Source: an uncultured Blautia sp. (lineage in GTDB: Bacteria > Bacillota > Clostridia > Lachnospirales > Lachnospiraceae). Taken from it: a DNA stretch of 64,000 bases. Made by a program: the position numbers and the translations under genes. Below are positions 21,371 to 64,000 of the stretch, piece after piece. Within the stretch, counting starts at the first letter, position 1; each line of letters begins with the position of its first letter. The notes under the pieces are model-generated. The model was not told where the DNA came from. It worked only from the letters and a program-made list of their open reading frames with translations, and made no database searches. The stretch spans positions 62,001-126,000 of the forward strand of contig CAMNTH010000003.1 of the NCBI GenBank assembly GCA_946557785.1. Reading direction: 5' to 3'.

Positions 21371-21385
21371 ACTATGCTGCATTCA

Positions 21386-24788: not shown

Positions 24789-25540
24789 AATACACAGTAA
24801 TCGTCGCGGAGGACGAAGAATTATTATTAAACAACCTGATCTCCAAGATCCGGAAGGCGGACCCGGATTTTGAAGTCATAGGAAAAGCCCAGACAGGCAG
24901 CCAGGCGTATGAGCTTGTGGAAGAATTAAATCCTGATGTCCTTATTACTGACATCCGAATGCCGGTTATGGATGGAATTACGCTTCTCGCAGAGGTACGC
25001 AAGCAGTTCCCATTAGTGAAGTTCATCATCACCAGCGGTTTTTCGGATTTCGAATACGCTAAGAAAGCAATCAGCCTGAAGGTATCGGATTATCTTTTAA
25101 AGCCTGTAGATTCCGAAGAGCTGAAATCTGCCCTTTTTAAAGTCAAAAATGAATTTCTCATTACCAAAAGCAGCTATGAGGATGTTTTTAATGCAGGCAC
25201 CACCAGGATGCCTCCCGGAAAAATCGCAGAGCTTTTGAAGGATTTCCTGGTGGAAAACTACAGCCAGGACATCAACCTGAATCTCATAGCAGACAATATG
25301 AATTACAGCTCAAGCTACCTTACCAGGATTTTCTGCCAGGTTTATGACTGTACCCCGTCCAAATACATTACCAACCTGCGCATCAGCAATGCCCAGAAAA
25401 TGCTGCTGCACAACCCGGAGTTTTCTATCCGGCAGATTAGCGAGGCTGTAGGGTATCATGACCAGGGCTATTTCAGCCGGATCTTCAAAAAGCAAACTGG
25501 CTTAAGTCCCTTTGAATTTCGGGAGGATGCAGAAATTTAA
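24785..25540 (+). CDS. YesN-type response regulator with AraC DNA-binding domain
   Basis: A 251-residue regulator: a receiver domain with acidic pocket AEDEE near 8-12 and phospho-acceptor Asp56 in LITDIRMPVMDG, then an AraC-type double helix-turn-helix at about 150-247 (NLIADNMNYSSSYLTRIF and IRQISEAVGYHDQGYFSRIFKK). It is shorter than typical YesN proteins because the middle linker domain is missing. It is translated with the kinase through an ATGA overlap. Confidence 0.93.
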   Translation: MKYTVIVAEDEELLLNNLISKIRKADPDFEVIGKAQTGSQAYELVEELNPDVLITDIRMPVMDGITLLAEVRKQFPLVKFIITSGFSDFEYAKKAISLKVSDYLLKPVDSEELKSALFKVKNEFLITKSSYEDVFNAGTTRMPPGKIAELLKDFLVENYSQDINLNLIADNMNYSSSYLTRIFCQVYDCTPSKYITNLRISNAQKMLLHNPEFSIRQISEAVGYHDQGYFSRIFKKQTGLSPFEFREDAEI

Positions 25541-25543
25541 AAT

Positions 25544-25581
25544 GTGCCGCCCCATTTTGTATTGCGGGGGCAGCACGTTTT
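25544..25581. terminator. bidirectional terminator between converging genes
   Basis: Arms of ten paired bases with one mismatch (GTGC-GCCCC and GGGGC-GCAC), a 13-base loop and TTTTATTT on the plus side; A-rich on the other side. It separates the response-regulator and helicase genes. Confidence 0.75.
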
Positions 25582-27628
25582 ATTTCTGGTATTCATACAT
25601 ATGAAGCTCATGCAGCGCCCTGGTTGCTGTAATATAGCGCGCCTGAGCGGCCAGCTTGGTCTTGTCTTTCTTTGGAAATACAGAAAAAACCTGGTCAAAC
25701 TCCAATCCCTTTGCAAGATAAAAGGTGGTAACCGTAAGTCCCTTACGGAAGCTGGAACTATTTCGGTCCAGATAGGAAAGCTGTTTTTTCGTATCATAGC
25801 CCTTGCGTTCCATCTGTTTGTCCAGCATATGGTACGCAGCTGATGCCTCCGACTCTGTACGCAGCAGCACCGCAGCCGTTTCAAATCCTTCATCTCCTAT
25901 TTCCAGATGTGAAAGAGCCTCCTTTGCAGCCTCTTCCAAGGTGGAAAATTCCTGTTCCCTCACTGCAGCGCCGTGGCGTTCAAAAAGCTCCATATCTGTG
26001 ATCCCGGCAAGTTTATTGGCATATTCTGCAATCTCCACTGTATTTCGATAACTCTTATTCATCACGATCCTGCGGATGTCCTTTCCGAAAACTCCCGGAA
26101 GAAATGCCATTACGTCCTGCATTTTCTCATCCATGGTCTGAGCCTTATCTCCCAGTATTGTCATTCTGCAGGGAAATATCTTTTTCAGGATCAGGTACTG
26201 CAGACGGGAATAATCCTGCATTTCATCCACTACCAAATGCTTAATGGTCCGATCCGCTTTCTGCAGGAAAAGGCTATATTTCATATATAAGACAGGATAC
26301 ACATCCTCATAACGCAGCCTCCTCTTTTCAAAAGCCACTCTCTTAAGCCCCTGATAGCCTTCTCTTTTCAGGAAATGGCTATAGAGCACATAAAGATCTC
26401 TTGTCTCATACATTCTCATGAATTTTTCCATAACAGCATCCCGCTCCTCTTCCGGAAGATCGCTGCCCCGTAAGGTTTCCACCTCATCAATAAAGTATTC
26501 CGCTACTGCTTCCATTCTGGAAAGCAGGGGAATATCCATAAATTTGAAATAGAAAAGCTGTATGATCTCTTTTTCCGTCTTTACAAAGCCCTTATATTCC
26601 ACGTCTCTAAACCGCATCAGTTCGTCTTCCATCTCCAGGAAAAAACGCTCCATACGGTTTAAAAAGGCTTCTGACTGCTTCTCCTCATAAAGGCTTTGCT
26701 GTTTAGGATGGGCAAGCATCCGCTCGATCTGATCATACCGATCCTCGCAGTCGGAAACCGTATCCTGCAGCTCCCGGTAAGCGAATAGATCAAAACTCAT
26801 CTCCCGGATATTCTCTTCCCCCAGCTCCGGAAGAATGTGGGAAATATAATCTGCAAATACACTATTGGGCGAAAGAACCAAAATATTGGAAGATTTCAGA
26901 TTCTGTCTGTCATGATACAAAAGGTAGGCGATCCTATGGAGTGCTATGGAGGTTTTTCCGCTTCCCGCAGCCCCCTGGATTACAAGGATCCGATCCCTGG
27001 TATTTCGTATAATGGCGTTCTGCTCCTTCTGGATGGTGCGGATAATATTTTTCAGCTGTACCTCTCCATTGCTTCCAAGCTCTGCCTTCAAGATCTCGTC
27101 ATCAATCTTAATATCGCTTTCGAATTCATAAAGCATTCTTCCGCCCCGGATCTTATACTGCCATTTGGACGTGATCTCCCCTGAGATCTCGCCTGCAGGA
27201 GCCGTATAAGCAGCAGACCCTTTGTCGTAATCATAAAAAAGTCCGCTGATGGGAGCCCTCCAGTCATATACCAGCGGGATCCCTCCCGTCCTCTGTGCAA
27301 AATTTCCGATTCCTATATAAAACGATTCCGGCTCCGCTTCTCCCTCAAAGCAAAAATCAACCCTCCCAAAGAAGGGTGAGTCCAGCATTTTCCGAAACCG
27401 GTGCCTGAGCTGCATTTCTTCCTGATTGGCATTAACCTGATGAAGAAGGGCCTGCTGATTATCAAAGTTTTCATAACCATACTGATCCATCTCCGTATAG
27501 TTCTCCCAATAATACTCATGCATGCTCTCTATTTCTTTCTGTCCTTCTGCAATGGCTTCCTCAATCTCTTCTATTCTTTTGTGAAGTCCCTCCAGAACCC
27601 TGGCCAGATATCTTTCACTCTCACTCAT
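25580..27628 (-). CDS. HelD-like UvrD/Rep-family helicase
   Basis: A 682-residue superfamily-1 protein with a long N-terminal coiled-coil arm (about 1-60), Walker A GAAGSGKT in the middle and a DEMQD box. A C-terminal part holds the TTFYLAKGLEFDQV motif. This layout is that of HelD, which binds RNA polymerase and recycles stalled or terminated complexes, rather than of a DNA-repair UvrD. The ATG at 27628 is preceded by GGAG at 7 bases; 14 further upstream codons have no site. It is a single gene between two terminator-like hairpins. Confidence 0.85.
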   Translation of the reverse strand: MSESERYLARVLEGLHKRIEEIEEAIAEGQKEIESMHEYYWENYTEMDQYGYENFDNQQALLHQVNANQEEMQLRHRFRKMLDSPFFGRVDFCFEGEAEPESFYIGIGNFAQRTGGIPLVYDWRAPISGLFYDYDKGSAAYTAPAGEISGEITSKWQYKIRGGRMLYEFESDIKIDDEILKAELGSNGEVQLKNIIRTIQKEQNAIIRNTRDRILVIQGAAGSGKTSIALHRIAYLLYHDRQNLKSSNILVLSPNSVFADYISHILPELGEENIREMSFDLFAYRELQDTVSDCEDRYDQIERMLAHPKQQSLYEEKQSEAFLNRMERFFLEMEDELMRFRDVEYKGFVKTEKEIIQLFYFKFMDIPLLSRMEAVAEYFIDEVETLRGSDLPEEERDAVMEKFMRMYETRDLYVLYSHFLKREGYQGLKRVAFEKRRLRYEDVYPVLYMKYSLFLQKADRTIKHLVVDEMQDYSRLQYLILKKIFPCRMTILGDKAQTMDEKMQDVMAFLPGVFGKDIRRIVMNKSYRNTVEIAEYANKLAGITDMELFERHGAAVREQEFSTLEEAAKEALSHLEIGDEGFETAAVLLRTESEASAAYHMLDKQMERKGYDTKKQLSYLDRNSSSFRKGLTVTTFYLAKGLEFDQVFSVFPKKDKTKLAAQARYITATRALHELHMYEYQK

Positions 27629-27685
27629 CACGTCTCTCCAATTCCATAAATATCCTAGGTCAATCATCATGTAACTGTATTATTA

Positions 27686-27726
27686 TACCCCAACTCCCTC
27701 CAAAAGTATAGAAGGGAATTGGGGTA
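27686..27726 (-). terminator. hairpin between the GH31 and helicase genes
   Basis: Arms TACCCCAA-TCCC and GGGA-TTGGGGTA with one mismatch and a 15-base loop. On the minus strand it is followed by TAATAATA, not a U tract, so it is a weak terminator or processing site. Confidence 0.5.
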
Positions 27727-27747
27727 CATTATCAGTTCTCTGGTTCT

Positions 27748-30135
27748 TTAGTTTTCTATAACCTCTACGATATAATTCAATTCTTCCATCCCAGGATATT
27801 CTCCCTTACGGGGTGCCGCCAGCAGCTTCTTCTCTCCATCATCCCAGGTAAACTCTGTTGCTGCATAAGCTCCCTTTTCGAAATTATAATTATTTCCCTC
27901 GTCTTCATAGAGCTTAAAGGATGCATCCGCACCTGGGTAAACAAGGAGTTTCATAGGCTGCTCCGGCTTCTGGGAAGCGTACTGAAGGCCGCTCACTTTC
28001 GGAAGGATGGTTCCTGCTTTCACAAAGATGGGCATTCTGTCAATAGGTGCGTCCACAGTTACATACTGACCGCCTCCATAGCATTCATTTGTCCAGAAAT
28101 CAAACCATCTGCATCCGTCAGGCAGGTAGCAGGTCCATGTTTTTTCTCTGTCAAGAGCCTTGTTGTCTGACTCATAATACATAGGCTTTGTTACAGGACA
28201 AATAAGGAGGGATTTTCCAAACATGAATTCCTGGGAAATTCCAATCACATTTTTATCCTCAGGGAAGTCGAACAGAAGACTTCTCAGCATAGTTCCGTCT
28301 TCAAAATGTACTTCCGCTGCCAGGGAATAAATGTATGGCATCAGTTCATAACGAAGTTTGATGAACTTCTCGATTGCATCATAGAACATCGTTCCTTTTT
28401 CTCCGAAATTCCAGATCTCCCTTGGGGTATCTGTACCGTGAGAACGGAACATAGGGAGAAAGGCCCCCATTTCAAGCCATCTGGTATAAAGCTCACAGTA
28501 CCCCTTATCCTGAACGCCTTCCTCAAATTTTCCCTGCCAGAACCACTTAGGTGTTGGATCCCCGCTGCATCCGCAGCCGCGGTTCTGCCATTTCTCACAA
28601 ACGGTAAAGAATGCACCGATATCCAATGTCCAGTAAGGATAACCGCTCATACACATATTCAGGCCCTCTGTGATCTGAATCTTAAAATTTTCCCAGGAAG
28701 CACAGGTATCTCCTGACCAGAGCATGGCACCATATTTCTGACCGGAGGCATAGCCGGAGCGGGTCAGGTTCAAGACACGCATATCCTCCCTGTCTTTTCT
28801 CTGGTTTTCATAGATTCCTTTTGCATGCATCAGTGCATAGGCATTGGCCCTGGCTGCATCCAGATATTTTTTGTGTTCGTTTCCTACAAGAACATAACGC
28901 TCCCATGGTTCTCTTTTCACTTCCCCGTTCCAATCAGGACCGGAAAACGGCTCTGTGGAATCGCACCACCAGGAATCAAAGCCTCCGTCAAACAGTTCTT
29001 TTTTTGCCTGCTTCCAGTAGATTTCCCTTGCCTTTTCATTAAAAGCATCGTATGTAGAGAAATCATTGAGCATATAGCCTGCCTCAAAAAGCTCTGTATG
29101 ATTCTCACATCCTGTATTCATATTTGGCCATACGGAAATCATGGTATGGGCGTTCATTTTGTGGATTTCGTCCATACATTCCTTTAAATCGCTGTAACGC
29201 TCTTTATCCAGGACCTTATTGCCCCATTTTCCAGGCTCCCAGCTATTCCAGTCCTGTACGATACAGTCTAAAGGCACCCGGATATCGCGGTAGTGTTTTA
29301 CCACATCCCGAAGCTCCTTTGCAGTGTAGTACTGCTCCTTGGACTGCACATAGCCATATGCCCATTTTGGCAGCATCTGCGCTTTTCCTGTAAGGAAACG
29401 ATAATCATGGATCACGCCGTCCATGCTGCCGCCCCCCAGAAAATAATAGTCAATCTGGTCAACGGTATCCAAAAACAGATGGGATCTGCCGCTTTCGTCA
29501 TGGAAGGTCATTAAAGAACAGCAGTCCACCAGGATTCCGTATCCTTCTGAAGAAACCAGTACAGGCATTGGGATACGCATATTATGCTGGTAGAGATACT
29601 GGTTATGTCCTCTGTAGTTATAAATACCTTCTTCTGCCTGTCCAAGGCCATAAATCCCCTCGTCTTCTTTCCACTGGTAAAACAGGCGCGCACGGTAAGC
29701 CTTCCTGTCTACTACTTCTTTTAAGTTCTGTATAAAGTTGCGCTCTCCGTCTACGGTTTTTACCCTGTTGATCACAGGCTCCTCTCCGCAGGTGGAGTGA
29801 TGGATCACGTCAATCTCCATAAGATCTCTTCCCGGTTCTTTAAGCCAGCAGCTTTTGTCCCAACGCATCCAGGTAAATTCTCCGTTATTCAAATTAATGG
29901 AAACCTGTACCTTTGCTGTTTTTAAAAGGACTGTATCCTCCTTTTCCTCCGTAGAGAACGCTACAGGCGCATATTCCTTTTTCTCAATAATGAAAGATTC
30001 CCCCTGTGTGCATACCTCTTTTTTGGAAATAATACAGCGAATGATTTCTTCTGTAACAGGTACCAGGCGGTAATTCATTCCATCAAAATAAAGGTCTAGA
30101 CCTGTACTGTCCTTTTTTACCATCGTTTCTGCCAT
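27748..30135 (-). CDS. GH31 alpha-glycosidase (alpha-glucosidase or alpha-xylosidase)
   Basis: A 795-residue family-31 glycoside hydrolase: N-terminal beta-sandwich, (beta/alpha)8 barrel with the nucleophile in WWCDSTEP (Asp392), and C-terminal beta domains. There is no signal peptide, so it acts on imported oligosaccharides in the cytoplasm. The WCDSTEP form resembles oligosaccharide-active alpha-glucosidases more than the YicI alpha-xylosidase motif, but the substrate is not certain. Its regulator-like AraC gene lies immediately upstream, separated by a terminator. Confidence 0.92.
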   Translation of the reverse strand: MAETMVKKDSTGLDLYFDGMNYRLVPVTEEIIRCIISKKEVCTQGESFIIEKKEYAPVAFSTEEKEDTVLLKTAKVQVSINLNNGEFTWMRWDKSCWLKEPGRDLMEIDVIHHSTCGEEPVINRVKTVDGERNFIQNLKEVVDRKAYRARLFYQWKEDEGIYGLGQAEEGIYNYRGHNQYLYQHNMRIPMPVLVSSEGYGILVDCCSLMTFHDESGRSHLFLDTVDQIDYYFLGGGSMDGVIHDYRFLTGKAQMLPKWAYGYVQSKEQYYTAKELRDVVKHYRDIRVPLDCIVQDWNSWEPGKWGNKVLDKERYSDLKECMDEIHKMNAHTMISVWPNMNTGCENHTELFEAGYMLNDFSTYDAFNEKAREIYWKQAKKELFDGGFDSWWCDSTEPFSGPDWNGEVKREPWERYVLVGNEHKKYLDAARANAYALMHAKGIYENQRKDREDMRVLNLTRSGYASGQKYGAMLWSGDTCASWENFKIQITEGLNMCMSGYPYWTLDIGAFFTVCEKWQNRGCGCSGDPTPKWFWQGKFEEGVQDKGYCELYTRWLEMGAFLPMFRSHGTDTPREIWNFGEKGTMFYDAIEKFIKLRYELMPYIYSLAAEVHFEDGTMLRSLLFDFPEDKNVIGISQEFMFGKSLLICPVTKPMYYESDNKALDREKTWTCYLPDGCRWFDFWTNECYGGGQYVTVDAPIDRMPIFVKAGTILPKVSGLQYASQKPEQPMKLLVYPGADASFKLYEDEGNNYNFEKGAYAATEFTWDDGEKKLLAAPRKGEYPGMEELNYIVEVIEN

Positions 30136-30171
30136 GTTTTTTCGTTCCTTTCTTTTAATATCCCATGATAT

Positions 30172-30224
30172 AAAAAATCCCCCATATCAGGACGTTGTTT
30201 ATCTACATCCTAACATTAGGGGAT
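30172..30224 (-). terminator. terminator after the AraC gene
   Basis: On the minus strand arms ATCCCC and GGGGAT, with an inner AGGA/TCCT stem, are followed by TTTTTTAT. It separates the AraC gene from the GH31 gene, so the two are not simply one operon. Confidence 0.75.
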
Positions 30225-30278
30225 CCTTCTGTCTATGTCATTTCTTTGCAGGAATTTGTACTATATTCACAACCTTTT

Positions 30279-31139
30279 TTAGGAGTTCTTCTCTCTCGGG
30301 GGCTTTCCCACATGCTTCTTGTACAAACGGTAAAAATTGGAAATATTGTTAAATCCGCATTCCATGGCGATCTGTGTCACGCTTCGATCTGTAGTACGCA
30401 GCAGCTCCCTTGCATGAAAGACCCGAAGCCGCGTTACATAATCGCTGAAGCTGATATTGGTCACTTTCCTGAAATAGGATGAAAAATAATTGGAGCTCAT
30501 ATATGCAGCAGCTGCGGCATCATCTAATGTGATCTTTTCACAGTAATGCTGGTCAATATACGAAAGCGCCTGCTCCAGACGTTTCATGGCATTTTTCTTT
30601 TCTTTGAGCATTTCTCCGGATTTGGTATCGTCCTGGTATGCCCGGATCAGCATTGTAAGGATCCTAAGGACATTGGCTTTGATCATAAGAGGATACCCTT
30701 CTCTGCGCTCCTGCCACTCCCGGTATATTTCCCGAATTCCCTTGCGGATCTCATGGCTTATGGGTTCTTCGCTGCCAATGCGGTTTTTAAAGTTGCTTCC
30801 CCGCTCCACAAAAGGCTTCAGATAATCATGGTCAAAAAAACTCATTTTCTCTGCTATAAATTCCGGTGCAAAAACCATTACCACAAGATGCATCTCTTCT
30901 TCCATAAGGCTCCACCCATGAGGCTCCACATTATTAAAAATAATAATGTCCCCCTCTGACATGGTATATTCCTGCCCATTGACAAAATAACGGCCCTGCC
31001 CCTTTTCCACATAGGTTATTTCCAGGTAGCTGTGCCAGTGGTAAGTATCCGGATGGCTGTTCTCATCATTTAAAATGACTTCCCAAATCTGAAAAGGGAA
31101 ATCCTGGTCAAGTAAAATATTGTCCCGTACTAGTTTCAT
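30279..31139 (-). CDS. AraC family regulator with cupin sensor domain
   Basis: A 286-residue regulator: an N-terminal cupin-type ligand domain (HWHSYLEITYVEKGQGRY pattern) and a C-terminal double helix-turn-helix (ITLDDAAAAAYMSSNYFSSYFRK and SVTQIAMECGFNNISNFYRLYKK). The likely target is the GH31 gene next door. The start at 31139 has only a poor Shine-Dalgarno; a TTG at 31151 is one base from AAAGGA and is less likely. Confidence 0.88.
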   Translation of the reverse strand: MKLVRDNILLDQDFPFQIWEVILNDENSHPDTYHWHSYLEITYVEKGQGRYFVNGQEYTMSEGDIIIFNNVEPHGWSLMEEEMHLVVMVFAPEFIAEKMSFFDHDYLKPFVERGSNFKNRIGSEEPISHEIRKGIREIYREWQERREGYPLMIKANVLRILTMLIRAYQDDTKSGEMLKEKKNAMKRLEQALSYIDQHYCEKITLDDAAAAAYMSSNYFSSYFRKVTNISFSDYVTRLRVFHARELLRTTDRSVTQIAMECGFNNISNFYRLYKKHVGKPPREKNS

Positions 31140-31325
31140 GAGCCTGCACAAGTCCTTTCGATATTTTTGACTGATACATTTGAACTCTTATCGCATTTGG
31201 CATAATTTTCATTGCCATTTTATTTCCTTCATCACCGCAAGTATCTTATCCATAGCCTTTATCTGCAAATAGGCGGGATTTTCCCCATCACAGGGCTATC
31301 TTTCCCTTTAGGAAATTATTACTTT

Positions 31326-52241: not shown

Positions 52242-53063
52242 CTATTTCTGCTTCTGCAAATTTTTCAACATAGCTTCCACAGTCTGCCCCGTCAGCGGAT
52301 GACGCACTTTAGGTGCGATCTGGGTCAATGGCACAAGCACAAAATCCCGCATATGCATCTCCACATGAGGGATCTGTAAAAACGGCAGATCCACCACCAG
52401 ATCATCATACAAAAGGATGTCCAGATCCAGCGTTCTTGGTCCCCACACGATCTTACGCACCCTGTGCGCTGCCTGCTCAATCTCATGAAGGGCATCCAGC
52501 AGCTCCTCAGGCGATAACAGCGTACGCAGTTCCAAGGCGCCATTGAGAAAATCATCCTGTTCCACACCGCCATAAGGCTCTGTCACAAAATACTCCGATA
52601 CCTGGCATACCTGGCAGTCCTTCCGTGCTTTGAGCATTTCAACTGCCTGATTCAGGTATCCCCCTTTATCTCCCATATTGGATCCAAGGGCAATGTACGC
52701 AGTGTGCCATTTCCTGGATATCTCTACTGCAACCGTCTCCAAAGGCAGGCCAATGGGCGCCCATGGTTTCTGGATTTCAATTTCTACTTCCTGCACCAGA
52801 GCATATTCCAAAAGGATCGCCTGTGCCAATTCCTCTGCCAGCCGCTCCAGTAACCGGAATGTATGCGTTTCTGCAAATTGCTTTACAAAATGACAGACCT
52901 CCCCATAATTCACAGAGTATTCCAGCACATCCGTTTTTCCTGCCTTACGTGTATTGGCGTGAAGGATGACAGAAAATAAGAATTTTTGCCCCAGCGCATT
53001 TTCCTCAGGGTAAACGCCATGCCTGGCATATACCTCCAGTTTATTAATCTTAATCTTGTCCAT
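52242..53063 (-). CDS. folK: bifunctional dihydroneopterin aldolase / HPPK (FolB-FolK)
   Basis: A 273-residue fusion. Residues 1-118 are FolB, with YARHGVYPEENALGQKF and the active-site Lys in EIQKPWAP. Residues 119-273 are FolK, 6-hydroxymethyl-7,8-dihydropterin pyrophosphokinase, with YIALGSNMGD and the magnesium/ATP motif WGPRTLDLDILLY. The two enzymes act in sequence in folate synthesis, so the fusion channels the pterin. AGGAGG lies 5 bases before the ATG. Last gene of the folE-HD-folP-folBK operon. Confidence 0.95.
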   Translation of the reverse strand: MDKIKINKLEVYARHGVYPEENALGQKFLFSVILHANTRKAGKTDVLEYSVNYGEVCHFVKQFAETHTFRLLERLAEELAQAILLEYALVQEVEIEIQKPWAPIGLPLETVAVEISRKWHTAYIALGSNMGDKGGYLNQAVEMLKARKDCQVCQVSEYFVTEPYGGVEQDDFLNGALELRTLLSPEELLDALHEIEQAAHRVRKIVWGPRTLDLDILLYDDLVVDLPFLQIPHVEMHMRDFVLVPLTQIAPKVRHPLTGQTVEAMLKNLQKQK

Positions 53064-53072
53064 ATGGGCCTC

Positions 53073-53879
53073 CTAGTGGTTCAAAATTGCTCGGATCATC
53101 TGAATTGCCCGCTTATTCTCTTTGATATCATGTACTCTTACAAAAGAACATCCCTTCATCACTCCCATTACCGTTGTGGCAAGAGTTCCCTCCACCCTTT
53201 GATCCGATGGAAGATCCAATGCAATCCCGATAACGGATTTTCTGGAAGTTCCTAACAGAATAGGAAATCCAAGCTGATGCAGAACATCCACATGGTGAAT
53301 CGCCTCCAGATTCATCTCCCAGGTCTTGGCAAATCCCACACCCGGGTCTAACATGATCTTATCGTCTGCAACTCCTGCTTCCTGCGCAATTCTCACGCAC
53401 TCTTCCATATCCTTTACAAGGTCTGTCAAAAATGCATCGTAAACCGCTTCCTTCCGGTTATGCATCAGGCAGCAAGCTGCCCCATACTTCGCAGTCAGTT
53501 CTGCTACAGTTTTATCGTACTTAAATCCCCAAATATCATTTACCAGATCCGCTCCTGCCTTGAGGGCAGCCTCAGCTACCTTTCCCTTATAAGTATCTAC
53601 TGATACAGGAATATCAAAACGGCTTTTCACTGCTTCGATCACCGGCACCACTCTTTCGATCTCCTCCTCCTGGGTGATCATCTTATGGCCCGGGCGGGTA
53701 GATTCTCCGCCAATATCCACAATATCCGCTCCTTCTTCCAGCATTTCTCGGACATGGTACAAAGCAGCATCCAGTGTATGAAATTTTCCTCCGTCTGAAA
53801 AAGAATCCGGCGTTACATTCAGTATCCCCATAATATAAGTTTCATTTTTCGTATCAAATTCTCGGCTGCCGATCTTCAT
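53073..53879 (-). CDS. folP: dihydropteroate synthase
   Basis: A 268-residue TIM-barrel enzyme that joins the pterin pyrophosphate to p-aminobenzoate and is the sulfonamide target. Signatures are ILNVTPDSFSDGG near 17-29 and DIGGESTRPG. The start at 53879 has GAGGAG 7 bases upstream; five extra upstream codons would overlap the HD gene. It lies 11 bases after the HD gene and 9 bases before folBK. Confidence 0.96.
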   Translation of the reverse strand: MKIGSREFDTKNETYIMGILNVTPDSFSDGGKFHTLDAALYHVREMLEEGADIVDIGGESTRPGHKMITQEEEIERVVPVIEAVKSRFDIPVSVDTYKGKVAEAALKAGADLVNDIWGFKYDKTVAELTAKYGAACCLMHNRKEAVYDAFLTDLVKDMEECVRIAQEAGVADDKIMLDPGVGFAKTWEMNLEAIHHVDVLHQLGFPILLGTSRKSVIGIALDLPSDQRVEGTLATTVMGVMKGCSFVRVHDIKENKRAIQMIRAILNH

Positions 53880-53890
53880 CTGTATTCTCC

Positions 53891-54373
53891 TCAATATTCA
53901 ATGACTGTATTTTTCTTCTTTGCCGGCCAATTGCATCTTTCTTTTGAAGGGCAGCAAAAACAATCCCTGGACATCTTATCAGCCCGGTAAAGAAATCTCT
54001 GCAGGTGATCCGAACATTCCTCCTGCACACTTCGATGGCTTCTGATGGCTTCCTGTATGCGGATAATTTCCTCTTGGGAAAATCCGCATGTACCCAGGAT
54101 TTCTTCCGCCATCCTCACTCCTGCCAGATCATGGGGCGTTCCCTTTGCCATCTGTTCATATCTTCCGATATCATGGAGCAGTGCGGCGGCATAGATCAAT
54201 TCCTTTTCAATGCCTGTACCTTCTTCCAGATTATATATATACATCAGCCTTGCAACATCCAGAAAATGTTCCATCGTATGTCTGCAAAACTCCCGATCCT
54301 TCTCAGCCTCCTGCAGCAGCAAAAATTGCTTCGAATAAATAGGATTCTGCAAAATCTTATGTAATCGTTCCAT
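53891..54373 (-). CDS. HD-domain phosphohydrolase in the folate operon
   Basis: A 160-residue HD-superfamily protein with metal ligands His32, His67-Asp68 (LLHDIGRYE) and Asp132 (RADKMSR). HD proteins hydrolyse phosphate esters using divalent metals. A C-terminal tail carries four cysteines (138, 140, 141, 147) followed by basic residues, possibly an extra metal site. It lies between folE and folP; no Nudix pyrophosphatase for dihydroneopterin triphosphate is present in the operon, so it is a candidate for that step. That is inference. Confidence 0.82.
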   Translation of the reverse strand: MERLHKILQNPIYSKQFLLLQEAEKDREFCRHTMEHFLDVARLMYIYNLEEGTGIEKELIYAAALLHDIGRYEQMAKGTPHDLAGVRMAEEILGTCGFSQEEIIRIQEAIRSHRSVQEECSDHLQRFLYRADKMSRDCFCCPSKERCNWPAKKKNTVIEY

Positions 54374-54417
54374 GCTTATTGTCTCCTGTTACGGTTTCCC
54401 ATTACTGTCTTCTTCTT

Positions 54418-54975
54418 TTACTGTCTGACCATCTGCAGAAATGTTTGCTGCAGGGTATAGTCTTGTGCAAATACACCCTTCACAATAGTAGTTACTGTCT
54501 TTGTCCCCGGCTTTTGTACGCCGCGCATTGTCATACACATATGTTCCGCTTCCAGCATAACCATCACGCCCTTTGGCTTCAGGTATTTTTCCATGGCTTC
54601 CGCAATCTGTGCAGTCATATTCTCCTGAATCTGCGGTCTTCTTGCAAAGGTCTCCACCGTACGCGCCAGCTTACTAAGCCCCGCCACATGGTTATCTGGT
54701 ATGTAAGCAACATGGGCTTTCCCGTAAAAGGGCAGTAAATGATGTTCACACACGGAATAAAAGGTAATGTCCTTTTCCAATACTATATTATTGTTTGTAG
54801 CCTGAAATTGTTTTTTCAGATGTGCCTCAGGGTCTTCATACAACCCTCCGTAAATCTGTTCACACATACGTGCAATCCGATCCGGCGTTTCCAAAAGACC
54901 TTCCCTGGTAATATCCTCTCCAATGCCTTCCAGCATGAGACGGACTCCTTCTTTAATTTTTTCATGATCCATCAT
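54418..54975 (-). CDS. folE: GTP cyclohydrolase I
   Basis: A 185-residue type IA enzyme that makes 7,8-dihydroneopterin triphosphate from GTP, the first step of folate synthesis. Zinc ligands are visible in [12 protein letters not shown] and in [17 protein letters not shown] lies 7 bases before the ATG. First gene of the folE-HD-folP-folBK operon, preceded by a leader with a tetrahydrofolate riboswitch and terminator, so feedback control by folate is expected. Confidence 0.97.
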
Positions 54976-56401: not shown

Positions 56402-59227
56402 TTATCGTCCTAATTTTTCACAGAAGGTTCCTTTTACATCGCTCCAGTTCTTGTCCGCATAATCCAAAAGATATTCTGCCTGCTCCATGGACATTTCCGG
56501 AAACAGAAGGAATAAGCTGTGGGAGCCGTATTTCTTTACAATACGATCTACATTCTTAATCCAGTCTTCAAATTCTCCTGAGTAGACTTTCACCCAAATG
56601 GATTTGCCTGCTGCAATTGCTTTGTCATAAATCACATCCCAATCCGGAAGAGTTCCGTCCGGGCCTGCATCTCCGCTTGTCCACTGAAGTGCGTCAATTC
56701 CATCGATCTCCATCAGGGCATCCATATGCTTTATGGCTGCCGGCCCATCCAGATGGTACAGAACATGATCCGCTTTTTCAGACTGTACCCTCAGAGACGG
56801 CTGGATATACCGGCGGAAGTCCTCCGGAGACATCATGGCAGAAAAGTCGCACTGAAGCTTCACGGTTTTTCCAGGTCCCCAGATCTGGAATACGGTATAA
56901 GCGTTTCCACCTTCTTCGTCCTTGATAACGTCATAAAAACGGTCATAATATTCATAGTAAAGATCCGTTACTTCCTGTATACGTTCCCCGATCATTTTCC
57001 CTTCATCCAGAAGATCAAACAAAATGTCCTGTGCACCCCGAAGAGAAGCAAGCACGTCTATGTTTTCCATCAGGTCAGGCATATCTACGTAGAAGTCATT
57101 TCCAGCCAGTTCACGGCAGTCACGGGCAAGCTGAATATGTTTCTTAAACCATTCATTCTCAGGATCAAAGGCCAGCTTGGGCACACCTTCCCAGCTCTCC
57201 AGGCATTTATTAAACCAAACGGTATCTTCCTTAAATCCGATTTCAGAGCCAAGGTATGCCGCAAGGGAACCAGGCCCAAAGTCAATATTCAGGTTCGGGA
57301 AGCTCTCACCAAGGAAATAATGGGTATCACAGAAATAACGGTAGCGGTCTACGATCCTCTGTGCATTCTGGTATTTGTCCTCCATGTCCGTCCAGAAAAG
57401 CTCTTTTGGCATGTTGTAATATTTTCCCTGGCAAATCTGATCAAGGTAGCCGCCTTCTACAGGCGTACCGTCAGAGTACTGCTCCACCTCCGGCTTTCTT
57501 GCGATCACACACATCAGCGGACGTCCTGCATTTTGATGTTTCCAGTAATTTTTGAATTTTTCTTTGGTTCCTTCCCAGTCTGCTTTGTATCCTTCCCCTG
57601 GACCTGGAACATGAACGGATTTTACAGAGCCGTCTACCTTAAAGGATTTCTTTTCTTCTTTTTCATGAGATACCGCCTTCTCCGCCTTCGCTTCTCCCAA
57701 AGGTGCCTCCTCACATTTACGCTCTTTTGGCACATCAAACTCTCCTGCAGCCGCTTTTGCACAGAAGCCGGACTCTGCGTATTTCTTTGCCTGCTCTGCT
57801 GCGGATGCGGCGTCCTCAGTATAGGAGTCCGCACCGATCTCATCAGCGAATGCCTGGGAAATCGGGGCACCGCCTACCATGATCTTAATCCTTCTTCGGA
57901 AGGGCTGTTTTAATAAAGCTGCCACAGTATCCCTAAGAGACGGCATGGTGGTTGTTAAAAGAGCTGAAAGACCTACAATGGTCGCTTCCTTATGCTCTTC
58001 AATGGTTCTTACAAAAGTTTCAATAGGTACATCAACCCCAAGGTCAATCACCTCAAATCCTGCGCTTTCGAACATCATTCCTACCAGGTTTTTGCCGATA
58101 TCATGAAGATCTCCCGCTACAGTTCCAAGAATAATGGTTCCTGCGCTGCCTGCCTCCCCTGTTGCAAGGTATGGCTTTAAGGCTTCCACGCCGGCTTTCA
58201 TAGCTCTGGCTGCAGCCAGCATCTGAGGTACAAAGATAATCTCCTTTTTGAAATTCTCTCCTACCACAGCCATGGCGCCGATCATACCGTCATTGAGAAT
58301 CGCTGCAGGATCACATCCTGCGTCAATGGCTTCCTGGACGCATTTGCCGATTTCTTTATTTTTGCCGTTCTGGGTAGCCTTAAAAACTGCCTGCATCTTT
58401 TCATCCATGGGACTTGCAGGAGCAGCCGCTTCCTCTTCCTGTGCTTTTTCTGTAAATGCATCAATATATTTCAGGCAAAAATCGTCTTTTTCCAAAAGAG
58501 CATTGGCAGCATAGATCATACCGATCATATTTTTGTTTGTAGGATCTACAATGGCGCTGTCCATGCCCGCATTCATAGCCAGCACCATAAATGCCTGGTT
58601 TACATATTTTCTTGCCGGAAGACCGAAGGAAATATTGGAAAGCCCGCTGGTAATATGAATATCCGGATATTCTGCTTTAATCCTGCGGCAGCACTGTGCA
58701 AATACAGTCAGTGCCGTCTGATCCGTGGATAAGGTCACTACCAGAGGGTCAATATGTAATCTATTTGGTGCTATGTTGTATTCTTTTGCTTTTTCCATAA
58801 TCCCGTGGAATACCTTCATACGGCGTTCTACTGAATCCGGAATTCCATCATTGTCGCAGAGAAGCGCAACACATTCCCAGTCCGTGTCCGCAATGACCGG
58901 GAAAATGGTATCAATTTTATCTCCTTCCAGAGAAACGGAGTTAATAAGACCCGGCCGTTTACAAAACGGAATAGCTGCTACACAGGACTTTGCACTTGGG
59001 CTGTCCACGCAAATAGGAGTGTCCGTTACCTCCTGTACAAGGCCGATCATCCATTTCAGGGTTTCTACCTCTGCATCTTCTTCTACAGATGCACACACAT
59101 CCAGAAACGCAGCTCCCGCCTCCGCCTGTTTTCTGGCTCTTTCTTTAATAAGCTCCCCATCTCTTTTCTCGATTGCTTTGGCTACGGACGGAATAGAGCC
59201 GTTCAGCTTCTCACCAATGATAATCAT
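56402..59227 (-). CDS. three-domain methyltransferase: methyl-THF MeTr + corrinoid protein + URO-D/MtaA-like domain
   Basis: A 941-residue fusion. Residues 1-260 are a pterin-binding TIM barrel of the MeTr type (EKLNGSIP, CVDSPSA, GLSNISFG). Residues 265-470 are a corrinoid-binding module: a helical cap, then the B12 fold with DLHDIG, axial His375. A charged linker (470-535) leads to a URO-D-type methyltransferase domain (540-941) as in MtaA/CmuA. The usual zinc motif HxCG reads HLDG (His825, Asp827). It would move a methyl group from a methylated substrate through B12 to THF. Start at 59227, AAGGAGG 8 bases upstream. Only a reductive activator is missing. Confidence 0.88.
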   Translation of the reverse strand: MIIIGEKLNGSIPSVAKAIEKRDGELIKERARKQAEAGAAFLDVCASVEEDAEVETLKWMIGLVQEVTDTPICVDSPSAKSCVAAIPFCKRPGLINSVSLEGDKIDTIFPVIADTDWECVALLCDNDGIPDSVERRMKVFHGIMEKAKEYNIAPNRLHIDPLVVTLSTDQTALTVFAQCCRRIKAEYPDIHITSGLSNISFGLPARKYVNQAFMVLAMNAGMDSAIVDPTNKNMIGMIYAANALLEKDDFCLKYIDAFTEKAQEEEAAAPASPMDEKMQAVFKATQNGKNKEIGKCVQEAIDAGCDPAAILNDGMIGAMAVVGENFKKEIIFVPQMLAAARAMKAGVEALKPYLATGEAGSAGTIILGTVAGDLHDIGKNLVGMMFESAGFEVIDLGVDVPIETFVRTIEEHKEATIVGLSALLTTTMPSLRDTVAALLKQPFRRRIKIMVGGAPISQAFADEIGADSYTEDAASAAEQAKKYAESGFCAKAAAGEFDVPKERKCEEAPLGEAKAEKAVSHEKEEKKSFKVDGSVKSVHVPGPGEGYKADWEGTKEKFKNYWKHQNAGRPLMCVIARKPEVEQYSDGTPVEGGYLDQICQGKYYNMPKELFWTDMEDKYQNAQRIVDRYRYFCDTHYFLGESFPNLNIDFGPGSLAAYLGSEIGFKEDTVWFNKCLESWEGVPKLAFDPENEWFKKHIQLARDCRELAGNDFYVDMPDLMENIDVLASLRGAQDILFDLLDEGKMIGERIQEVTDLYYEYYDRFYDVIKDEEGGNAYTVFQIWGPGKTVKLQCDFSAMMSPEDFRRYIQPSLRVQSEKADHVLYHLDGPAAIKHMDALMEIDGIDALQWTSGDAGPDGTLPDWDVIYDKAIAAGKSIWVKVYSGEFEDWIKNVDRIVKKYGSHSLFLLFPEMSMEQAEYLLDYADKNWSDVKGTFCEKLGR

Positions 59228-59365
59228 GACATTTTCCTCCTTAAAATACATCCGTCATCTGTAAACATTTTAGCGGAAAACAGGAGGAATCTGCATCTGT
59301 TATCTTGGGCAGTTTATGTATTATTTTACGAAATGTATTTCATATTTATAAGATATATCCGGTAT

Positions 59366-60349
59366 TCATAAATGCACCCGGGCTTCTCCGCTGTTCTTCA
59401 AGCGGAATGCACGGGGCGTCATATGGTAACGTTCCTTGAAAACCCGATGGAAATAACTGTTATTCTCATATCCTACTGCAGAAATAATATCACTCACCGG
59501 CAGATCCGTGTCGCACATCAGCTCCACGGCCTTATTCAGGCGCTTCCGCTGGAGCAGTTCCTTAAAATTATATCCTGTGGATTTTTTAATCATTTTGCTC
59601 AGCATATGCATAGGAAGGTGCAGCCTATCGCAAAGCTCTGTAAGTGTAGCGGTTCTGTACTGCTGTTCTATATAATCCAGGGTCGTCATGGTGATCATAT
59701 TTTCATACTGGTTTGGAAGGCGCATTTCCACATACTGAACCGCATCCAAAAGATAAAGAAAAATCAGCCCCATGGTAGTCTGGTTGATCCGGCTCTGATC
59801 TCCTTTTCCTGTGACCAAAGAATAAATAATATTCTCCAGAAGGTTCTGGATCTGGAGAACCTCCGCTACTTTGAAGTGAAGATATTCCCCCCGCTCTTCA
59901 TCCTGGCGCAGCACATTTACCAAGAAATCCGCAAGCACATTATTCCTTCCCGCCATGGAATATGCCACATCAAAAAATTCCGGCAGCACCATGAAATTAA
60001 TGGCAATATCGCTCTCCCCTGCCGGAAGAATCTCATGGGTAGTAAATTGATTCAAAAACAAAAGCTCTCCCTTACGTACCACAACCTGTCTTCCGTCAAT
60101 GATATTTGTCAGGCGGCCCACACACACATAAAGCACCTCAATAAAATTATGTCTGTGGGCTGGAAAATGCACAAAGCGGGTATGGGTTCGAACTGCGATC
60201 AGCTTTCCTTCCTCCAGCATCTTTTTGCTGTCCACGGTAAAATCTTTCCCGGAGGTATATAAGTCCTTATCTACCTTGGAAACCCCGTCCAGAATTCTTC
60301 TCTCCTCTTCTGAAATTTTTTTCAAATGCTCCAATAGCTCCTGCTGCAT
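59366..60349 (-). CDS. AraC family regulator with cupin domain
   Basis: A 327-residue regulator: an N-terminal helical extension, a cupin domain (RFVHFPAHRHNFIEVLYV; VRKGELLFLNQFTTHEI) and a C-terminal double helix-turn-helix (TLTELCDRLHLPMHMLSKMIKK; VSDIISAVGYENNSYFHRVFKE). It lies between the sugar importer and the corrinoid methyltransferase on the same strand and may control either. A palindrome GAAATGTATTTC lies just downstream, near 59331-59343, before the methyltransferase gene. Confidence 0.9.
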   Translation of the reverse strand: MQQELLEHLKKISEEERRILDGVSKVDKDLYTSGKDFTVDSKKMLEEGKLIAVRTHTRFVHFPAHRHNFIEVLYVCVGRLTNIIDGRQVVVRKGELLFLNQFTTHEILPAGESDIAINFMVLPEFFDVAYSMAGRNNVLADFLVNVLRQDEERGEYLHFKVAEVLQIQNLLENIIYSLVTGKGDQSRINQTTMGLIFLYLLDAVQYVEMRLPNQYENMITMTTLDYIEQQYRTATLTELCDRLHLPMHMLSKMIKKSTGYNFKELLQRKRLNKAVELMCDTDLPVSDIISAVGYENNSYFHRVFKERYHMTPRAFRLKNSGEARVHL

Positions 60350-60575: not shown

Positions 60576-61598
60576 TTAGTACAGTTTAGCCATTTCTTCG
60601 ATGTTGTCGGAATTGAACTGCAAAGGCAGGCCAAGAACGATTTCTGTACCGCCGTCATCAGCTGTTGTAATGGTGTATTCTCCAAGGTCGCCAGCTGTGA
60701 ATGTCTCATCCAGAGCACCTGTGATTTCTTCGTTTGCAAGTGCGATTGTTGCATATGCGCTGAGTTTTCCAAGACCCTGCATATCCCACAGATAGAAGTA
60801 TGGGCAGGAATGTGCATCGTCAGCACCTGTGTACTCGATCATTTCAGACGGAAGTCCAAGACCTGTCAGTTTGCAGGTGGATTCATTATCCTGAAGATAT
60901 TTAGCAGCCGCTGCAATACCAACAGTTGTAGGAGCGCAGATTACTTTCAGATCCGGATAGTTCTCAAGAAGAGCAGATGTCTGGTCTATGGATTTCTGCG
61001 GTTCATCATCACCATAAGCAACTTCTACCAATTCCAGTTTACTATATTTTTCATCGCTTTCCATGATGGATTTCATAGCGTCGATCCATGCGTTCTGGTT
61101 AGCTGCCTGAGAAGTAGCAGAAAGGATCGCCCACTGGCCTTCGCCGCCTGCGATATCCAGAACTGCATCCATAAGAGCCTGTCCTACAGCAACAGTACCA
61201 GCCTGGTTTACAAATACCTGACGGCTGTCAGAGTTTGGTGCAGAGTCAAAAGAAGATACTTTGATTCCAGCGTCCATAGCTTCTTCCATCTTTGCCTGAA
61301 GAGCATTTACGTCATTTGCGGAAATACAGATTGCATCGTAGTCCTGAGAAATCAGGTTATCAAGAACCTTGATCTGTGCATCAGCAGTAGCTGCTTCCGG
61401 ATAAACTACGTCTACTGTGCCGCCTTCTGCTTCTACAGTTTCTTTATAAGAAGCTGCTGCGATCTCGAAGAATGCATTACCTGCAGATTTTCCAACCAGA
61501 GCGATCTTCTTGCCGTCTGCTACGCCAGCAAATACCGGGCAAGCTGCTCCAAGGACCATTGTTCCGCAAAGAACTGCGCTAACTAATTTTTTGTTCAT
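60576..61598 (-). CDS. Lsr/Rha-like sugar-binding protein (periplasmic-binding family 2)
   Basis: A 340-residue solute-binding protein with a signal peptide of about 24 residues (cut after VFA); a cysteine at 20 is not in a proper lipobox. The pattern of VGKSAGNAFF, FDSAP, SATSQAANQNAW and FYLWDMQGLGKLSAYA follows LsrB/RhaS. Two aspartates that contact AI-2 in LsrB appear as Asn and Thr here by eye, so rhamnose or another deoxy- or pentose sugar is more likely than AI-2. Last gene of the importer operon, after a stem-loop. Confidence 0.88.
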   Translation of the reverse strand: MNKKLVSAVLCGTMVLGAACPVFAGVADGKKIALVGKSAGNAFFEIAAASYKETVEAEGGTVDVVYPEAATADAQIKVLDNLISQDYDAICISANDVNALQAKMEEAMDAGIKVSSFDSAPNSDSRQVFVNQAGTVAVGQALMDAVLDIAGGEGQWAILSATSQAANQNAWIDAMKSIMESDEKYSKLELVEVAYGDDEPQKSIDQTSALLENYPDLKVICAPTTVGIAAAAKYLQDNESTCKLTGLGLPSEMIEYTGADDAHSCPYFYLWDMQGLGKLSAYATIALANEEITGALDETFTAGDLGEYTITTADDGGTEIVLGLPLQFNSDNIEEMAKLY

Positions 61599-61686: not shown

Positions 61687-62691
61687 TTATTTCTTTACCT
61701 TCATTGCTTTCTTCACCTGGCCTATGATGTTCGGCAGGGCAACTGCCCCGATCAGCAAAAGCCCCAGGATCAGAAGGATTACCTGAGCATGCACGTTTCT
61801 CTGACCAAGACCTACACGCAGACACACAATGATAAATGCAGAAATCACACCGCCTGCTAAGTTTCCTTTTCCACCAGTGGATGAAATACCGCCGAATACA
61901 GCCATGGCAATAGCATCCATTTCGAAACCGTTACCTGTCGTGGTATTAGCACCGTAAGAAGTAGATACGATAAACAAAGCACAAAGTCCGGAAATCGTTC
62001 CCATTACCGTGTAAATAATGAAGCGAATCTTCTGCACATGAATTCCTGAATAATACGCAGTAAGACGGTTGGTACCAATTGCATAAACCCGGCGTCCAAA
62101 GGTACTCTTTCCCAAGATCACTGCAAAGATCACTGCCATGATCACTACCAGGAATAAAATATATGGCACGCTTCCTACTTTGCCTGCAAGAAGACGGAAG
62201 CCGTCGGTATTGCTTGCGGAAATACTTCCTCCGCTTCCCAGGATGATTTCTGCAATACCACGGAAGATGATCTGGGTTGCAAGAGTGACGATCATTGGGG
62301 GAAGCTCCTGAAATCTTGTTAAAATAAAGCCATTTACACTCCCGCAGAGAGTTCCCACAACCAATGCGGTAATTACTACTAAAACAAACGGGGCGCCTGT
62401 GTTGCAGACAATACAGCTCATGGTTGCGCAAAGGCAGACGATCGATCCTACAGAGATATCAATCTCACCTAAGACCAGGATGTATGCCATAGGAAGCATA
62501 AGGAATACTTCCGCCAGGTAAACCGGCATCTGACGCAGCAGACTCTTCAGATTATAAAATTCTGAAAAACATGCGCAGAAAATATTTACCAAGATAAAGA
62601 CGATAACCAGAATGCCTTCCCAGCTGAAAAGCATTTTCTTTATGGGACTTTCCGGCACATTATTAATACTTCTTCCAGATTTTCCGGCCAT
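61687..62691 (-). CDS. sugar ABC transporter permease 2 (RbsC/LsrD/RhaQ type)
   Basis: A 334-residue permease with 8-10 membrane segments. It has the ISVGSIVCL and GNGFEMDAIAMAVFGGISSTGG motifs of CUT2 permeases. It starts 2 bases after the first permease gene ends, so the two form a heterodimer, as in LsrCD and RhaPQ. Confidence 0.93.
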   Translation of the reverse strand: MAGKSGRSINNVPESPIKKMLFSWEGILVIVFILVNIFCACFSEFYNLKSLLRQMPVYLAEVFLMLPMAYILVLGEIDISVGSIVCLCATMSCIVCNTGAPFVLVVITALVVGTLCGSVNGFILTRFQELPPMIVTLATQIIFRGIAEIILGSGGSISASNTDGFRLLAGKVGSVPYILFLVVIMAVIFAVILGKSTFGRRVYAIGTNRLTAYYSGIHVQKIRFIIYTVMGTISGLCALFIVSTSYGANTTTGNGFEMDAIAMAVFGGISSTGGKGNLAGGVISAFIIVCLRVGLGQRNVHAQVILLILGLLLIGAVALPNIIGQVKKAMKVKK

Positions 62692-62693: not shown

Positions 62694-63686
62694 TTACATC
62701 TCCCTTCCTTTTAATGCACTTCTGTCAGCAACACGCTGCAGAACAACGTTGGCTACAACAACCACAAGGATCAAAACACCTTTGATGGTATTCTGTGCTA
62801 ACGGGTCAATACCAACCAACGGAAGCGCTTTGGCAATCGTAGCCAGGATCAGGGAACCAAGCAGAGCGCCAAGCACCGTACCTCTTCCGCCGCTCATGCT
62901 GACACCGCCGATTACACAGGCTGCGATAACATCCATTTCACCGCCAAGCTGCATATCCGGCATGGCTGATGCATAAACGGAAACCTGAATGGCGCCCCCA
63001 AGACCGGCAAGGAATCCCATGATCATATATACAAGCAGTTTGATATTCCTCACATTGATACCGGAAACCTCCGCTGCATTTGCATTACTTCCTACTGCAT
63101 AAATCTTACGGCCTGTTCTGGTCCACTTCATAAAAAAGAAGAACACCACATAGCAAAGAATAATCACCCAGATGACACAGCTCAAGCCAAGAATCTTGGT
63201 GGTTGCAAAGTCTTTAAAGCTTCCAAGCGCAGCCGCACTTGCCCACTCTCCGCCATTGGAAACCAGGTATCCCATGGCACGGAATACATACATAAAGCCC
63301 ATGGTTGCAATGATAGGAGGCACATCCGCCCTTGAAATTACAAGTCCTACCAGCAGTCCGCATGCAGTACCGATTGCCAGGGCAATGGCAAAAGCCACCA
63401 CCGTATTGGAAATATATTCATATTTCAAAAGCATACCAATGGACATACCTGAAAGAGCCAGGGTAGACATGATGGAAATATCAATACCACCTACCAGCAT
63501 AACACACAGCATACCAAGAGACATGATCATGGTAACTGCATTATTCTTCAGCATATCCGTAACAGATTTCACTGTAAGAAAAGAGGGGCTGATCACGGAT
63601 ACCACTGCAAACAGCAGGATCAGGATCACTGCCAGCAGTGCCTCACGAGAGCCTGTGATTTTTTTTACGATTGATTTCTTTTCCAT
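62694..63686 (-). CDS. sugar ABC transporter permease 1 (RbsC/LsrC/RhaP type)
   Basis: A 330-residue CUT2 permease with 8-10 membrane segments, the IDISIMSTLALSGM stretch and the GGEMDVIAACVIGGVSMSGGRG motif typical of RbsC. Its ATG shares a base with the stop of the ATPase gene (TAATG), so translation is coupled. Confidence 0.93.
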   Translation of the reverse strand: MEKKSIVKKITGSREALLAVILILLFAVVSVISPSFLTVKSVTDMLKNNAVTMIMSLGMLCVMLVGGIDISIMSTLALSGMSIGMLLKYEYISNTVVAFAIALAIGTACGLLVGLVISRADVPPIIATMGFMYVFRAMGYLVSNGGEWASAAALGSFKDFATTKILGLSCVIWVIILCYVVFFFFMKWTRTGRKIYAVGSNANAAEVSGINVRNIKLLVYMIMGFLAGLGGAIQVSVYASAMPDMQLGGEMDVIAACVIGGVSMSGGRGTVLGALLGSLILATIAKALPLVGIDPLAQNTIKGVLILVVVVANVVLQRVADRSALKGREM

Positions 63687-64000
63687 TATTTAGCGGCCTC
63701 CTTTCCTGCTGCATGTCCTTTTTCCATAGCAAGCTCCAGAATTGCTTCCTGGGTCGCTTCTCCTCTGGACAGTTCACCGGTCTTACGGCCGTTGCACATA
63801 ACAATAATCCGATCGCTCATGCCCAAAATTTCCGGCATCTCAGAAGAGATCAGAATAATCGCATAGCCTTTCAGCGCCAGTTCGCCCATGATAGCATAAA
63901 TTTCTGCTTTTGCACCTACGTCAACACCCTTGGTAGGCTCATCCATGATCACGACTTTCATTTCCTGGCTTAACGCCTTGGCAACAACTACTTTCTGCTG
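63686..64000 (-). CDS. sugar ABC transporter ATPase, C-terminal part (cut by window edge)
   Basis: Only the last 104 codons are in the window. They begin within the second ATPase half: [10 protein letters not shown] (the end of a signature), Walker [16 protein letters not shown] and a switch [10 protein letters not shown]. This matches RbsA/LsrA/RhaT tandem ATPases of about 500 residues, so some 400 residues lie beyond the right edge. It is the first of ATPase-permease-permease-binding protein, the lsrACDB/rhaTPQS order. Confidence 0.9.

Follow-up and report, generated by a model that had tools for sequence, protein, structure and literature searches.

What is demethylated by a protein that carries a whole methyl-transfer chain in one polypeptide? 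The question is raised by a stretch of 64,000 nucleotides from an uncultured Blautia species (contig CAMNTH010000003.1; hereafter the window), whose minus strand encodes, at positions 56402-59227, a single intact frame of 941 amino acids comprising a methyltransferase (MeTr) of the kind that forms methyl-tetrahydrofolate (methyl-THF), a corrinoid carrier and a C-terminal domain (CT). Anaerobes usually make the substrate methyltransferase, the corrinoid carrier and the folate methyltransferase as separate proteins. On balance, we lean towards the view that the fusion acts as a one-chain corrinoid demethylase that takes the methyl group from an O-methylated sugar or glycoside and supplies the acetogenic pathway with methyl-THF.

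Three methyl-transfer domains in one open reading frame

The open reading frame (ORF; 56402-59251, minus strand) is open for 949 codons, and a start at 59227, preceded by a strong AAGGAGG ribosome site, gives the 941 residues; a promoter and terminator scan found 14 and 7 sites, respectively, against 13.9 and 6.4 in shuffled sequences. Pfam recognizes Pterin_bind (residues 20-228), B12-binding_2 (281-351) and B12-binding (364-476), and the first 265 residues score 350 bits with the NCBIfam model PRK07535 (methyltetrahydrofolate:corrinoid methyltransferase), above its cut-off of 259. The solved structure closest to residues 1-260 is 4o0q (320 bits; dihydropteroate synthase according to its PDB deposit title), which we take to be the part of a Desulfitobacterium O-demethylase that forms methyl-THF; 2e7f, an enzyme of the acetyl-CoA pathway, reaches 130 bits. 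For residues 276-482 the best match is the corrinoid protein 1y80, the carrier also matches PDB entries 7xcn and 4jgi, and the MeTr and corrinoid parts jointly match the methionine synthase core in a PDB sequence comparison. No homocysteine domain is reported by Pfam or NCBIfam in the 941 residues, which sets the protein apart from MetH.

A preceding interpretation, made from the letters of this DNA (the sequence-only reading), had described MeTr, corrinoid and methyltransferase 1 (MT1)-like URO-D parts in one chain with the axial histidine 375 intact. This description stands: the frame is single and open, the domain matches and the predicted fold of CT agree with it, and the corrinoid motif reads D373-L-H375-D-I-G378. 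The MeTr residues D75, N96, D160 and N198, as well as D373, H375 and G378 of the carrier, presumably all of functional importance, are identical in all 23 rows of an alignment of the window protein with 22 relatives (L082 left out for a frame disturbance), and the family-wide loss of the MeTr site that was named as a possible refutation is thus not seen. The fusion hence contains the folate-side methyltransferase (MT2) with its pterin residues and the DxHxxG corrinoid protein of a corrinoid O-demethylase system.

The search for the same domain order that the sequence-only reading had proposed was run on named genomes and the neighbours were listed; it returned 110 relatives, of which 80 loci were kept (all counts out of 80 refer to these). 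The three domains lie within one ORF in 23 of the 80 and CT stands alone in 57. Because the fusion recurs in this way, an assembly join or frameshift between the domains, the other refutation named, is ruled out.

A remote branch of the UroD superfamily

CT has no Pfam match even at an E-value of 10 (the gathering cut-off of the URO-D family PF01208 is accordingly not reached) and no NCBIfam match, and PDB sequence searches with CT alone and with CT profiles gave chance matches only, none of them to 4ay7. Its structural model has a predicted local distance difference test score (pLDDT) of 91, and the nearest solved fold is that of the methylcobalamin:coenzyme M (CoM) methyltransferase 4ay7, at 10% identity in the structural alignment. 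Profile-profile comparison puts CT in URO-D with a probability of 85-90%, aligning the HLD of its HLDG motif (residues 825-828) on the HSC of the H-x-C-G motif, as the sequence-only reading had placed it. By its fold, CT falls into the UroD/MetE structural superfamily and would qualify as the UroD-fold MT1 of a corrinoid O-demethylase system; judging from the model, it is a branch of the superfamily remote from known families. No CT relative occurs among 37 pattern matches in viral contigs.

The HLDG motif is invariant in two CT alignments, in 56/56 rows of one, built from 55 of the 80 named loci (one short row dropped, others thinned at 90% identity), and in 21/21 rows of a wider one, built from 21 of the 30 CT loci of the family (nine with stops, partial or weak matches dropped). 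A chance occurrence is thereby ruled out. The zinc ligands of MtaA/MtbA-type enzymes are HxCG plus a later Cys. At the later ligand place of CT, chosen by eye, 37 of the 56 rows have E and the others P, D, Q, A or S, with no Cys; the invariant residues D794, H825, D827 and H834 make up an acid- and histidine-rich set. HLDG had been taken as a sign of a probably new metal site or substrate. It has turned out to be a trait of the entire branch, and since zinc is already known to be lacking from some UroD-type demethylases, namely CdmB and the Moorella enzyme for O-demethylation (according to excerpts of PMC13222342), an odd metal site alone is no proof of a new substrate, the suggestion of which comes from the genomic context.

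Distribution and origin of the fusion

Within the same family, CT is present in 27 of 397 genomes (30 loci). It lies in a frame of about 950 codons in three of them (the window genome, one of the same genus and one of another genus), and the other CT genes of the family have shorter frames. Beyond the family, a sample of 368 genomes of the phylum yielded CT relatives in 18 more (19 including the window's own). The 23 fused loci comprise 11 titled Blautia, one from Robinsoniella peoriensis and others from metagenome-assembled genomes (MAGs) with broader names, including a group from ruminant guts; three are blemished, by a frame disturbance in the MeTr part (L082), a cut at a contig end (L071) or a beginning at a contig edge (L084). 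On a quick CT tree the fused state requires three changes, compared with 21 in shuffles, which fits, for example, one gain and two losses (L067 and L086), and the fusion thus probably arose once.

Where CT stands alone, a separate MeTr is nearby in four loci and a separate corrinoid protein in five; L094 has a row of CT, DUF2284, a RACo corrinoid activator, a Pfam URO-D protein, MeTr and a corrinoid protein. In genome G133, MeTr and corrinoid genes with 78% and 69% identity to the corresponding parts of the fusion lie side by side, on a contig other than that of CT, and in G338 the CT, MeTr and corrinoid genes occupy three contigs. Two Spirochaete MAGs (L127 and L129, one of them a Treponema) have a stand-alone CT beside GH31 and sugar permeases, which suggests transfer across phyla.

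Association with corrinoid machinery

Genomes with CT also encode corrinoid proteins. A corrinoid-domain match (E 1e-45, MetH included) occurs in 27/27 CT genomes of the family (24/24 without the three fused genomes) and in 114/397 overall (Fisher's test, 2e-16), this being the safer figure, with 80 genomes among the matches listed read by hand; elsewhere in the phylum, at E 1e-40, the count is 18/18 CT genomes against 24/62 controls (p 1e-6). Of the 27 CT genomes, 13 have an OdmA-like MeTr (E 1e-50), with 2.5 expected. This association bears on the idea that CT is no methyltransferase at all but a barrel enzyme acting on sugars, whose link to a methyl carrier has some other cause. Its acid- and histidine-rich invariant residues, the sugar neighbourhood described below and the existence of relatives at 24 to 39% identity whose role is unassigned could be read that way; with a corrinoid protein in every CT genome of both samples and a methylcobalamin enzyme as the best fold match, we regard it as very improbable.

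A reductive activator is also available, PF14574 being found twice in the window genome, in neither case beside the fusion. The genome has two ACS matches with adjacent RACo, and it is therefore very probably that of an acetogen. RACo lies near CT in four of the 80 loci, three of them fused, and in L147 and L148, from genomes with a more distant stand-alone CT, a corrinoid protein is found near a RACo-like activator and a PocR-like regulator (by eye), accompanied in L148 by an MtaA-like UroD protein. Elsewhere in the window genome (L135:5566-10041, G000:C3), a corrinoid protein, a RACo-type activator and a regulator, PocR-like by eye, form what looks like an orphan corrinoid hub, no substrate methyltransferase being seen in the stretch read.

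The chain might also run in the opposite direction, with MeTr taking the methyl group from methyl-THF and CT passing it to a thiol or another acceptor, in the manner of a methionine synthase whose C-terminal half is of MetE type. The window genome indeed has a stand-alone homocysteine domain and no MetE, outside the fusion a single MeTr, next to the ACS genes, and a single corrinoid protein were found, and split methionine synthases are known (PMC7311316, seen in part). We nevertheless think this unlikely: the Cys of HxCG is Asp in all 56 rows, with no Cys (by eye) at the later ligand place; inspection by eye of the surroundings of CT, which often hold sugar importers and glycosidases, picked out no methionine gene; the structure closest to the MeTr part is 4o0q, presumably part of an O-demethylase; and stand-alone homocysteine domains occur in genomes without the fusion too.

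Sugar context of CT

A sugar-importer or glycosidase cluster was counted within 10 kb of CT in 63 of the 80 loci, and in 32 of the 38 that have at least 8 kb of sequence on both sides. GH31 is near CT in 32 of the 80, importer permeases in 37-38, a binding protein in 28 and a two-component pair in 28-35, the transporter figures being plain counts from genomes in which such genes are common; GH95 is near 10 loci and GH106 near three. In G560, from another family, CT lies inside a pectin and sugar-acid cluster, as read by eye; a corrinoid gene accompanied by a regulator and a UroD-like gene is about 16 kb away.

The gene set that adjoins CT in other Blautia is present in the window as well, at 19612-31151, 26 kb from the fusion (table 1). 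Apart from the histidine kinase, its genes share 59-87% identity with their counterparts in the 8 closest CT loci listed per gene, and its CUT1-type importer genes 69-87%. With the window GH31 as query (E 1e-180), this subfamily was found in 20 of 21 CT genomes and in one of 59 controls drawn at random from the 370 family genomes without CT (p 1e-16); here and in the methionine comparison, 21 of the 27 CT genomes were used (CT at least 58% identical), six with weaker CT being left out. The solved structures nearest to this GH31, tested with its relative in L062, are alpha-xylosidases.

The sequence-only reading had drawn its hint of a sugar from the importer directly beside the fusion. The sugar context is upheld, the choice of partner is not: the RhaS-type binding protein is near five of the 80 loci, in one of them merely 29% identical, and high identity of this importer is common only to the window's nearest relatives, so that it was rejected as a general partner of CT. 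The same protein scores 279 bits with the RhaS model TIGR02637, under the cut-off of 342, and its best PDB match is 4wzz, followed by the rhamnose-binding 4kvf and 5bq3. The adjacent AraC regulator has counterparts of 84-92% identity in five of the 80 loci. Judging from the sequences compared, the main sugar partner of CT appears to be the GH31 locus.

Table 1. Features of the fusion and of its two sugar-related neighbourhoods in the window.
Feature	Position	Strand	Basis or remark
Three-domain fusion protein (MeTr, corrinoid carrier, UroD-like methyltransferase)	56402..59227	-	941 aa
MeTr domain	58442..59227	-	residues 1-262; D75, N96, D160, N198 kept
Corrinoid carrier, helical cap and B12 Rossmann domain	57782..58396	-	residues 278-482; DxHxxG with H375
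Charged linker, length varies among relatives	57593..57769	-	residues 487-545; alignment of fused proteins
CT, UroD superfamily (predicted)	56405..57592	-	residues 546-941
HLDG motif at the MtaA-type HxCG place	56744..56755	-	residues 825-828
GH31 glycosidase, subfamily tracking CT	27748..30135	-	Pfam GH31; clusters with GH31 adjoining CT elsewhere
AraC regulator of GH31 locus	30279..31151	-	74-80% identical to AraC genes of the 8 closest CT loci listed
Histidine kinase of GH31 locus	22977-24788	+	49-68% identical, 8 closest CT loci listed
Response regulator of GH31 locus	24785-25540	+	
CUT1-type importer permeases of GH31 locus	19612-20430, 20430-21311	-	
CUT1-type importer binding protein of GH31 locus	21386-22702	-	
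AraC-family regulator just upstream of fusion	59366..60349	-	Pfam HTH_18, AraC_binding
Sugar-binding protein, RhaS/LsrB type	60576..61598	-	Peripla_BP_4
Sugar ABC importer permease	61687..62691	-	BPD_transp_2
Sugar ABC importer permease	62694..63686	-	BPD_transp_2
Sugar ABC importer ATPase	63686..64000	-	504 aa, runs past window end; by eye

Several neighbouring genes may be mentioned in passing. A 356-aa ORF (18429-19499, minus strand) at the end of the GH31/importer locus matches neither a Pfam family (E 1e-6) nor any gene called in the 80 loci. Two recurrent CT neighbours lack a Pfam match at E 1e-5, namely a 916-aa protein (L112:1468-4218; its cluster in three loci) and a 371-aa one (L082:6803-7918; five loci) that is possibly a spurious frame. 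A folate biosynthesis run (52242-54975, minus strand: folBK, folP, an HD protein and folE) follows the fusion closely on its downstream side; relatives of folE and folP occur in one of the 80 loci, L088, and the adjacency is possibly due to chance.

An aryl O-demethylase would use the same three-step chain, taking the methyl group from a methoxylated phenol, while the products of the sugar genes would take up and cleave a phenolic glycoside. The UroD-type O-demethylases MtvB, OdmB and VdmB act on methoxylated aromatics (PMC13222342, in excerpt), and a Blautia strain cleaves aryl ethers via a corrinoid O-demethylase (PMC9602652, likewise in excerpt). CT is, however, too distant from known families for a Pfam or NCBIfam match, its tracking partner is a GH31 of the alpha-xylosidase kind with CUT1-type importers often nearby, and no aromatic-pathway gene was recognized by eye in the loci read; a phenolic substrate thus seems rather improbable to us.

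A possible route from methylated sugars to acetogenesis

The relatives point to methylated sugars rather than the usual plant phenols as the methyl source. We infer from the context that CT is the methyl-donor side, as well as the direction of transfer and the kind of substrate. CT would bind the O-methylated sugar or glycoside and offer its methoxyl carbon to the corrinoid that the middle domain carries in the Co(I) state, a separate RACo-type reductase activating or resetting the cobalt; the resulting CH3-Co(III) would be carried by the cap-B12 module to the N-terminal MeTr, yielding methyl-THF, which would enter the acetogenic pathway of the window genome, while the demethylated sugar would be fermented. 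Being fused would spare the carrier the search for its partners. Since the alcohol of a sugar leaves less readily than a phenol, a site rich in acids and histidines, able to bind a metal or donate a proton, would, as a guess, make sense. As for the exact sugar, our guess is a methylated pectin- or xylan-type one, e.g. 2-O-methyl-xylose, which fits the alpha-xylosidase-like GH31.

Several observations weigh against a sugar demethylase. The GH31 cut-off of 1e-180 is close to both the weakest CT-genome match (5e-195) and the sole control match (1e-191), GH31 of any kind occurs in 21/21 CT genomes (a count made on CT genomes alone), G133 has CT without this GH31 subfamily, and no sugar cluster was counted within 10 kb in 17 of the 80 loci, or in six of the 38 with long flanks. 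The genomes compared are kin rather than independent samples, so the p-values overstate the case. At E 1e-50, 14 of the 27 CT genomes lack an OdmA-like MeTr, and among those with a more distant stand-alone CT (58-70% identity) only two of 12 have one; there CT must hand the methyl group to something else. C793 of CT is invariant in 56/56 rows and kept in 19/21 of the wider alignment, so that the site is less safely regarded as free of thiolates: a metal ligand of thiolate type may come from elsewhere in CT, e.g. from C793. The full-length AlphaFold model of the fusion (pLDDT 71, low at residues 501-536; predicted template modelling score 0.46) is too weak for judging domain contacts. Finally, MtaB, a methanol enzyme, lies near CT in five of the 80 loci, in four of them with a corrinoid protein (L101, L105, L106 and L110) and in L109 alone. 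In all five the CT is a stand-alone one and a PocR-type regulator is nearby.

These MtaB loci might suggest that the substrate is methanol, e.g. pectin-derived, or another small methyl donor. In those loci MtaB is a methanol enzyme in its own right, next to which CT would be redundant, and the flanks of the 23 fused loci, covered to at most 10 kb, showed no MtaB; such a substrate therefore appears highly doubtful. Returning to O-methylated sugars, we suggest more tentatively that gut Bacillota may possess an anaerobic corrinoid route in which a UroD branch of its own, working with one GH31, demethylates O-methylated plant sugars, the whole methyl chain being fused in Blautia and relatives. If true, methyl groups of cell-wall sugars would enter acetogenesis directly in these bacteria. 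The GH31 partnership makes the question of the substrate directly testable, and a single chain with donor enzyme, carrier and acceptor enzyme would be a handy object for the study of corrinoid shuttling between two active sites. Such shuttling has been studied mainly in MetH.

Comparison with known systems

In open-licence PMC papers we recognized no description of a MeTr-corrinoid-UroD fusion, of this UroD branch or of corrinoid-dependent sugar demethylation; for methyl removal from sugars only an oxidative route was found there, the P450 demethylation of 6-O-methyl-galactose (PMC10033563, in excerpt), which likewise strips the methyl group from a polysaccharide-derived sugar but releases formaldehyde. 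The parts and the three-step logic are already known. MetH shares the core order MeTr, cap and B12 domain with the fusion, which lacks the homocysteine and S-adenosylmethionine reactivation domains and has a UroD-like C-terminal domain instead. From MtaA/MtbA (4ay7), CT differs by its low identity and the replacement of the HxCG Cys by Asp. Type 1 mlp clusters combine a corrinoid protein, RACo and an MtaA-like UroD protein, as does the CT genome of L148, and are proposed for methyl-sulfur or -selenium compounds (PMC10418091, as excerpted); CT is not an Mlp, its 10% identity to 4ay7 being below the >25% to a characterized CoM methyltransferase that defines this type.

CmuA, the chloromethane enzyme of Methylobacterium, also joins a UroD-superfamily methyltransferase I and a corrinoid carrier in one chain, with its methyltransferase II a separate protein, CmuB (PMC13222342, in part), and belongs to a methyltransferase branch other than CT. 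Like the fusion, the three-component O-demethylases (MtvABC, OdmABC and VdmB) and the chloromethane system CdmBCA use a UroD-fold methyltransferase, a corrinoid protein, a MeTr to THF and an ATP-dependent activator. The domain order of CmuA is, we believe, unlike that of the fusion. Whereas the three-component systems are separate proteins for aromatics or haloalkanes, the fusion is a single polypeptide with a remote UroD branch, set in a sugar context.
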